64,000 nucleotides of DNA from Candidatus Kapaibacterium thiocyanatum. Lineage in GTDB: Bacteria; Bacteroidota; Ignavibacteria; Kapaibacteriales; Kapaibacteriaceae. The position numbers and the translations under genes are program-made. The DNA lies in the NCBI GenBank assembly GCA_001899175.1, contig MKVH01000025.1, positions 62,001 to 126,000 on the forward strand. Reading direction: 5' to 3'. Below are positions 59,768-62,523 of this stretch, one piece after another; positions within the stretch are counted from its first letter, which is position 1; every line of letters starts with the position of its first letter. Below the pieces are notes generated by a model that made no database searches, was not told where the DNA came from, and worked only from the letters and a program-made list of their open reading frames with translations.

Positions 59768-60673
59768 ATGATGCGTACACTTCTTTCGTTCTGTTGTCTT
59801 CTCGTAGCCGTGGCCGTCCATAACGTGACATCGTCTGCACAGGAACTGGATGCCAACGTCGTGGTCAACATGCAGGCCATTCCGATCGACCAGCGTCAGG
59901 AGCTACAGACGATGGCGAACGACGTGAAGAACTACCTCAACAATCAGCGCTATACCGGTGCGGATTGGGACGGGGCACGCATTCCCGTCGATGTGACGAT
60001 CTACCTCATGAGCCGGAACGGAAATACCTATACGGCACGTCTGGCCGTCGTGAGCAAGCGCCTCGTGAACAACGTTCCCGGATCCGGTGCCGCCCTGCTG
60101 CGGATCTTCGATCAGGAGTGGACGTTCGACTGGTCCTTCAATCCCGTGCTGACCTACCAGACCCTGCGCTACGATGATTTCACGAGTCTCGTCGATTTCT
60201 ACATGCTGCTGGCCATCGGACTCGACATGGATACGTACGAGGATCTTGGCGGTACCAACGTCTACAAGTCCGCCCAGACCATCGCCCAGCTCGGTGCCGG
60301 ACGTGGCATCAATGCCTTCCGGACCTTCTATCAGCCGGGTGAATTCACGCGTTCGGCACTCGTGAACGAAATGCTCGACCTCAGGTATAACGGCCTGCGC
60401 CGGTATATCTTCGACTATCATGATGCCATCGACCAGTATGCCAAGAACAAGGATGCCGGCCGCGCCGCTCTTACGCAGGTCATCGCCGACATCGCCCAGT
60501 TCAAGCGGGACAAGATCAGCAACCGCAGCCTGCTCCTGCAGGCCTTCTTCGATGCCAAGCACATGGAGATCGCCGACATCTTCCAGGGGCAGAAGAATTC
60601 GACCGTGTGGGGCGATCTTCGATTCCTCGATCCGGGGAATACGACGGTCTACGACAAGGCGAGAGGCAACTGA
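59768..60673 (+). CDS. porD: DUF4835 / type IX secretion protein PorD
   Basis: A 301-residue exported protein of the DUF4835 family, known as PorD in T9SS. After the signal peptide it opens QELDANVVVNMQAIP. The middle LVDFYMLLAIGLDMDTYEDLGG and the ending RSLLLQAFFDAKHMEIADIFQG are diagnostic. It supports secretion of the sorting-domain proteins found in this window. It is followed after 26 bases by the TadA-RsmI fusion. Confidence 0.85.
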   Translation: MMRTLLSFCCLLVAVAVHNVTSSAQELDANVVVNMQAIPIDQRQELQTMANDVKNYLNNQRYTGADWDGARIPVDVTIYLMSRNGNTYTARLAVVSKRLVNNVPGSGAALLRIFDQEWTFDWSFNPVLTYQTLRYDDFTSLVDFYMLLAIGLDMDTYEDLGGTNVYKSAQTIAQLGAGRGINAFRTFYQPGEFTRSALVNEMLDLRYNGLRRYIFDYHDAIDQYAKNKDAGRAALTQVIADIAQFKRDKISNRSLLLQAFFDAKHMEIADIFQGQKNSTVWGDLRFLDPGNTTVYDKARGN

Positions 60674-60699
60674 TTCCATACTGCCTTTCGGAGAACCTT

Positions 60700-61905
60700 T
60701 TGAGCGACGTACAACGCCGACATGAGCGGTTCATGGATATGGCCCTCGACGAGGCGCGCCGTGCCGCCGAAGCGGGAGACGTACCCGTCGGTTGCGTCAT
60801 CGTCCGTGGGGACGACGTCGTAGGTCGTGGCGGCAACGAGATCGAGCGGACGGGGGATCCTACGCGGCATGCGGAGATCGTCGCCATCGCCGAAGCCGTG
60901 GCCGTGACGGGAGAGAAGTTCCTCTCCGACTGTACGCTCTACGTCACGCTCGAGCCGTGCAGCATGTGCGCCGGTGCCATCGTGCTGGCCCGTGTTCCGA
61001 CGATCGTCTATGGCGCTACCGACGAGAAGACGGGAGCCTGCAGATCGCTGTTCGAAATCGCCGACGATCCGCGACTGAATCATCGCTGCATCGTCCGTAC
61101 CGGTATCCGTGCAGAGGAAGCCGCTGCGTTGCTCAGCGGTTTCTTCGCCACGCAACGTGGCGGAACATCACAGGCGTCACGCCGACCCCTCCCCGAACGG
61201 TCTCCGGATCAGCGTCCTGCACCCGCATTGTATCTGGTCCCGACGCCGATCGGGAATCTGGAGGACATCACGGTGCGCGGCCTGAAACTGCTCCGTGCCG
61301 CCGATATCGTTCTCTGCGAGGACACCCGCCATACCGGACAGCTTCTGCGTCAGTACGGCGCACAGGGTGGGCGTCTCGTCAGCAATCATGAGCATAACGA
61401 ACGGGAGCGCGTCCGCGACGTCGTGCGCTGGGTCGGGGAGGGCAAGATCGTCGCCCTCGTCAGCGATGCCGGAATGCCGGGCATCTCCGATCCCGGATAT
61501 CGTGCCGTCCACGGCTGTATCGACGCCGGTGTGCCGGTGGTAGCACTACCCGGTGCGACCGCGGCCATGACAGCAGCGGCGGCCAGCGGTCTACCCACGG
61601 ATGCGTTGTATTTTGGGGGCTTTCTGCCCCAGAAGAAAGGGCGCGGCCTGGCACTTGAGCGGCTCGCCGCTCGTGCCGAAACCGTGATTCTCTACGAATC
61701 GCCCCATCGTATCCTGCAACTCCTCGAAGAGCTCGAACACGTTGCCGGATCCGGGCGGAGGATCGTGATCGCGCGGGAGCTCAGCAAGATGCATGAGGAA
61801 TACCTGCGCGGGACGGTGGCGGAGGTCAGGGCGGTCGTCGAGGCGCGTGGCGGCATCAAGGGTGAATGCGTGGTGCTCGTGGCAGGCTCCGCAACGGAGG
61901 AATGA
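60700..61905 (+). CDS. fused tRNA adenosine deaminase TadA and 16S rRNA methyltransferase RsmI
   Basis: One 401-residue frame with two complete enzymes. Residues 12-151 are TadA, which makes inosine 34 in tRNA-Arg: zinc ligands His57 (TRHAEIVA) and Cys87/Cys90 (LEPCSMC), with Glu59 the catalytic acid/base. Residues 176-401 are RsmI, which 2'-O-methylates C1402 of 16S rRNA: VPTPIGNLEDITVRGL, SDAGMPGISDPGYRAV and PGATAAMTAAAASGLPTDALYFGG. A 24-residue Pro/Arg/Ser linker joins them without a stop codon. The TTG at 60700 has GGAGA upstream; ATG at 60733 is an alternative start. tmk begins directly after the stop. Confidence 0.88.
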   Translation: MSDVQRRHERFMDMALDEARRAAEAGDVPVGCVIVRGDDVVGRGGNEIERTGDPTRHAEIVAIAEAVAVTGEKFLSDCTLYVTLEPCSMCAGAIVLARVPTIVYGATDEKTGACRSLFEIADDPRLNHRCIVRTGIRAEEAAALLSGFFATQRGGTSQASRRPLPERSPDQRPAPALYLVPTPIGNLEDITVRGLKLLRAADIVLCEDTRHTGQLLRQYGAQGGRLVSNHEHNERERVRDVVRWVGEGKIVALVSDAGMPGISDPGYRAVHGCIDAGVPVVALPGATAAMTAAAASGLPTDALYFGGFLPQKKGRGLALERLAARAETVILYESPHRILQLLEELEHVAGSGRRIVIARELSKMHEEYLRGTVAEVRAVVEARGGIKGECVVLVAGSATEE

Positions 61906-62523
61906 ATGTTCATATCGTTCGAAGGCATCGACGGCAGCGGCAAGTCGACGCAGTTGCTTCTTCTCAAGGAATGGCTCGAAGCGCGCGGTCACCGCGTGCT
62001 CGCCATCAGGGAGCCAGGTGCCACCGTACTGTCCGAAGCCATCAGGGAAATCCTGCTCAGCAACAAGCAATCCATCACGTCCACCGTCGAATTGCTGATG
62101 TTCAGTGCCGCGCGTTCCCAACTGGTGGAGCGTGTCATCGTACCGGCGCTGGAAAAGGGCGAAATCATCCTGTGCGACCGTTTCGTGGATTCCACCACGG
62201 CCTATCAGGGCTACGGTCGCCTGCTCGATATGGACGACGTCCGGGCCTGTAACAACATCGCCACGCGCGGGGTCATGCCTTCAGTGACGTTCTTCATCGA
62301 CGTCCCCTATGAAGAGGCGCAGATGCGTATGCATTTCCACCCTGCTTCCGGCGAACCGGACAGGATGGAGCGGGCGGGACGGGATTTCTTCGAGCGTGTG
62401 CGGGCAGGCTACCATGCGATCGCAGCGGCCGACGCAGCACGATTCCGGATCGTGGATGGCATGAGGGACCGTGCCGATATCCACGCCGAGATCACCACGA
62501 TTCTGTCGGAAGTCCTCTCCTGA
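61906..62523 (+). CDS. tmk: thymidylate kinase
   Basis: A 205-residue dTMP kinase making dTDP for DNA synthesis. P-loop FEGIDGSGKST lies at 5-15, IREPGATVLSEAIR is the EPG motif, and CDRFVDSTTAYQG is the DRF motif. The ATG begins right after the fusion gene's TGA, with GGAGG upstream inside that gene, so translation is coupled. The family is certain. Confidence 0.96.
   Translation: MFISFEGIDGSGKSTQLLLLKEWLEARGHRVLAIREPGATVLSEAIREILLSNKQSITSTVELLMFSAARSQLVERVIVPALEKGEIILCDRFVDSTTAYQGYGRLLDMDDVRACNNIATRGVMPSVTFFIDVPYEEAQMRMHFHPASGEPDRMERAGRDFFERVRAGYHAIAAADAARFRIVDGMRDRADIHAEITTILSEVLS

Follow-up and report, generated by a model that had tools for sequence, protein, structure and literature searches.

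TadA is the tRNA adenosine-34 deaminase, which acts on tRNA and makes I34 in tRNA-Arg(ACG); RsmI is the 16S rRNA (cytidine(1402)-2'-O)-methyltransferase, which acts on the assembled 30S subunit. Each of the two enzymes forms homodimers, and to our knowledge they are separate proteins in other bacteria. Literature searches on either enzyme or on their fusion turned up no description of a TadA-RsmI fusion, in keeping with the first-pass annotation of the DNA studied here, which knew of none; RsmI is named in a 2025 survey of ribosome biogenesis factors, which has no mention of a fusion (PMC12641178). No chain in the PDB was found to match over both domains.

The window, a stretch of 64,000 nucleotides from Candidatus Kapaibacterium thiocyanatum, carries TadA and RsmI in one reading frame, as had been read from the letters in the first-pass annotation; the frame of 401 aa is open throughout and is matched by both domain models. 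It begins with a TTG at 60700 and ends with a TGA at 61903-61905 (Table 1). This start is located 56 codons before the HAE histidine, and an ATG, GTG or TTG is present at the equivalent position in 21 of the 23 family genes, with the start of the remaining two at most 2 codons away; TTG 60700 holds up as the start of the gene.

Table 1. Features of the fused locus and of the second RsmI-like gene (positions in the window unless a locus is named)
Feature	Position	Strand	Details or basis
DUF4835 protein (PF16119), upstream neighbour	59768..60673	+	Pfam
Shine-Dalgarno-like GGAG	60690..60693	+	6 nt 5' of the TTG start; read directly
tadA::rsmI fused gene	60700..61905	+	401 aa plus stop; open frame
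TadA domain, residues 1-155	60700..61164	+	NF008113, Pfam, alignment, fold match
Linker, residues 156-176	61165..61227	+	pLDDT, composition, length, dN/dS
RsmI domain, residues 177-401	61228..61902	+	TIGR00096, alignment, fold match
tmk (thymidylate kinase), downstream neighbour	61906..62523	+	Pfam; ATG abuts the fusion stop
Second RsmI-like methyltransferase	L002 361-2115; RsmI domain G000:C21:245019-245711	-	Homologues L210, L211

The N-terminal half matches the NCBIfam TadA model NF008113 over residues 4-155 with 149.5 bits, a score just under the cut-off of 150 and far above those of other deaminase models, and Foldseek matches it to the TadA structures 2nx8, 2b3j and 1z3a. The catalytic residues of both halves had been called intact from the window alone, and this extends to the whole family. 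In the alignment of the family fusions, the Zn/catalytic residues H57, E59, C87 and C90 of the HAE and PCxxC motifs are invariant in 23/23, and the C-terminal FF pair of the TadA domain (residues 148-149) is invariant as well. The expected TadA substrate, tRNA-Arg(ACG), is present in the window genome (L157, anticodon ACG), among 42 tRNA matches of which part were typed individually. Besides the fusion, the deaminase-domain proteins of this genome are RibD and one whose score with the TadA model, 37 bits, is far short of the cut-off of 150, leaving the fusion as the sole TadA detected there. The low-scoring protein (L005 1423-1986, plus strand) is TadA-like or guanine-deaminase-like, and matches the TadA model only, weakly.

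The C-terminal half passes the cut-off of the NCBIfam RsmI model TIGR00096 (residues 177-399; 221.5 bits against 167.9) and is matched by Foldseek to the RsmI structures 3kwp, 9pzg and 5hw4. The RsmI motifs PTPIGN (PxPIGN), EDTR, SDAG.P.ISDPG and LPG are kept, with their core residues invariant or nearly so in the family alignment, and a deaminase and a TP_methylase domain are recognized by Pfam in 23/23 family members. RsmH, the partner of RsmI at C1402, is encoded in the window genome, so that the presence of both tRNA-Arg(ACG) and RsmH is as expected if both halves act. At the level of sequence, a TadA-RsmI fusion that is real and has intact active sites is strongly supported.

The RsmI_C domain (PF23016) has no match anywhere in the window genome. 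It is present in 4 of 14 control genomes, and as TP_methylases occur in all 14, RsmI_C is not a feature of all RsmI. A loss of RsmI_C tied to the fusion was considered and rejected, as the RsmI frames of unfused relatives in the order are likewise short (about 222-250 aa). A second RsmI-like protein of the window genome scores 175.4 bits, above the RsmI cut-off of 167.9; the fused RsmI may thus not be the only C1402 enzyme of this genome. Such a paralogue is clear in only 3 of the 23 family genomes (G000, G010 and G028), and the fusion is therefore the only RsmI found in most of the family. The paralogous proteins (L002, L210 and L211) have a basic low-complexity C-terminal tail of 344-445 residues, rich in Gly, Arg, Pro and Gln, which terminates in a conserved M/LRSRRK motif; the copy in G010 has lost the SDAG motif.

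The first-pass annotation was right in placing a linker between the halves, although its extent of 24 residues (about 61153-61227) was slightly long in comparison to the 156-176 boundaries given in Table 1. Across the 23 genes the linker has 15-50 residues, always keeps the frame and is rich in Pro, Ala, Gly, Ser and Glu, with no conservation of its sequence. AlphaFold returns two confident folded domains with pLDDT below 50 at residues 156-170; with a pTM of 0.55, the model was used per domain and not for relative domain placement. The linker, about 20 residues in the window, is predicted to be disordered and flexible. Ratios of dN/dS, computed from the three closest species pairs, are about 0.06-0.08 for TadA, 0.03-0.07 for RsmI and 0.13-0.59 for the linker, the last resting on 15-18 codons; they indicate purifying selection on both halves, and a constraint on the linker that appears weaker and variable.

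The same domain order had been proposed as something to look for in related genomes, and the fusion is found in 23/23 sampled species of the window's family, which consists of uncultured, Kapabacteria-like bacteria, as one open frame in each. Among 123 genomes searched in the order, the window genome and 21 further members of the family gave stop-free full-length matches, and the 23rd case, G014, holds both domains in one 431-codon frame with a longer linker. The family proteins are 54-67% identical to that of the window. Outside the family, a stop codon lies between the halves in the sole full-length matches from these 123 genomes, and samples of 391 genomes from the class and 395 from the phylum added no stop-free full-length fusion; in a scan of the contig database, the only one among the matches listed to span both domains is the unfused L059.

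In a tree of 68 RsmI domains, all 23 fused ones are on one side of one branch (support 100/97), and as they form one clade a single fusion event is implied. Several independent fusions were also considered and are not needed, as one change on the RsmI tree is sufficient. At the unfused loci of the order, rsmI is preceded on the same strand by tadA at a distance of less than 300 bases in 34 of 45, and tadA is 395-1278 bases upstream in a further 3; it was not found within the fetched stretch at 8 of the 45. In L029-L031 the two genes are in the same frame with '...TAAATG' between them, so that losing one stop would fuse them. Given this adjacency in unfused relatives, at times with one in-frame stop between the genes, the fusion probably arose when an old tadA-rsmI-tmk cluster lost the stop between its first two genes. 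The tmk gene follows the fusion at 23/23 fused loci and is present at 30/45 unfused loci. In most of the family it starts at or overlaps the fusion stop (TGATG, TAATG; 61903-62523 in the window); its placement suggests that tmk may be translationally coupled to the fusion. The DUF4835 gene is upstream of the fusion in 22/23 family members, compared to 7/45 unfused loci of the order.

It is very probable that the gene encodes one bifunctional protein, with two independently working halves on a flexible tether and a single origin by stop loss. The N-terminal half would be the cell's tRNA adenosine-34 deaminase TadA, giving I34 in tRNA-Arg(ACG), and the C-terminal half the 16S rRNA C1402 2'-O-methyltransferase RsmI; the halves would fold apart and act independently, with both activities kept and the product staying uncleaved. 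A single event in the family ancestor, the loss of the stop between operon neighbours (tadA-rsmI-tmk), would have produced this arrangement, and its main effect would be that both enzymes are produced in equal amounts. Of the two roles first suggested for the fusion, a fixed stoichiometry follows from the architecture, with both domains on one chain. The other, coordination of tRNA and rRNA modification, gained no support, as the known substrates are different RNAs and the disordered linker varies and is under weak constraint; nothing here points to such coordination, which is improbable, and substrate channelling is not expected from general knowledge of the TadA and RsmI targets.

A closer coupling of the two reactions is improbable. 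TadA tethered to RsmI on the nascent 30S would coordinate tRNA-Arg editing with P-site maturation, or would be an extra RNA-binding or dimerisation module which replaces RsmI_C; a fusion never re-split in 23 species and the absence of RsmI_C from the window genome would fit this, and since both enzymes are homodimeric, the fusion may build a larger assembly. However, neither the sequence nor the length of the disordered linker is conserved, the similarly short RsmI of unfused relatives means that RsmI_C loss does not track the fusion, and we know of no substrate that TadA and RsmI have in common. If true, wobble editing would be tied to 30S maturation, and tRNA and rRNA modification would be physically coordinated.

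It is very improbable that two proteins come from the fused message and the genes are still functionally separate, whether because ribosomes initiate anew where RsmI begins or because the linker is cleaved. The first reading of no stop and no ATG between the halves stands for the window, and the frame is uninterrupted in 23/23 family genomes despite the changes in linker length. A TTG or GTG does occur near the first RsmI residue in some members, including the single in-frame TTG of the window linker region (61228), which is at the first RsmI codon and has no Shine-Dalgarno. Yet the linker and the first six codons of RsmI are free of ATG, GTG and TTG in 4 of the 23 genes (L012, L014, L024 and L025), and an internal start with a Shine-Dalgarno-like site is seen in only 2/23, at differing positions; separate RsmI initiation is thus unlikely as a family-wide rule, and in the four genes lacking an internal start RsmI can hardly be made separately. 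As the linker is disordered it is exposed to proteases, and proteolysis there could free the halves. An assembly or sequencing error which joined two adjacent genes in the contig has a negligible probability: the genes are adjacent in relatives, at times with a single in-frame stop between them, but the same fusion in 22 further, independent genomes at 54-67% identity refutes it.

Both halves belong to known families, and their fusion is a new domain architecture, modest yet solid; the join is genuine and ancient, and looks like the merging of two ordinary neighbour genes and not like a new mechanism. An apparently sole tRNA-Arg wobble deaminase has, through the whole history of the family, shared its polypeptide with a 16S rRNA methyltransferase, a clear example of the passage from operon to fusion protein. 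The fusion serves as a marker trait for the family and as a natural construct for asking if the modification of tRNA is ever coordinated with that of rRNA. Where an annotation pipeline assigns each protein a single name, one of the two functions may be lost.

In comparing the locus to the described enzymes, the N-terminal half shares with TadA of E. coli (1z3a) and S. aureus (2b3j) the full domain, the HAE and PCxxC zinc motifs and 45-47% identity over the domain; unlike in those proteins, its C-terminus runs on through the linker into RsmI. The C-terminal half likewise has the complete catalytic core and all motifs of RsmI (E. coli 5hw4, 9pzg; TIGR00096), with 47-48% identity and RsmH in the genome, whereas here TadA precedes it and RsmI_C is missing, as it is by length in the unfused relatives of the order and phylum. 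Closest in arrangement are the unfused tadA-rsmI neighbours of the same order (L029-L031, and L059/L209 from Candidatus Kapaibacterium), which have the same genes in the same order and on the same strand, often with tmk next; there, however, a stop codon parts the two genes that in the window's family are read as one.
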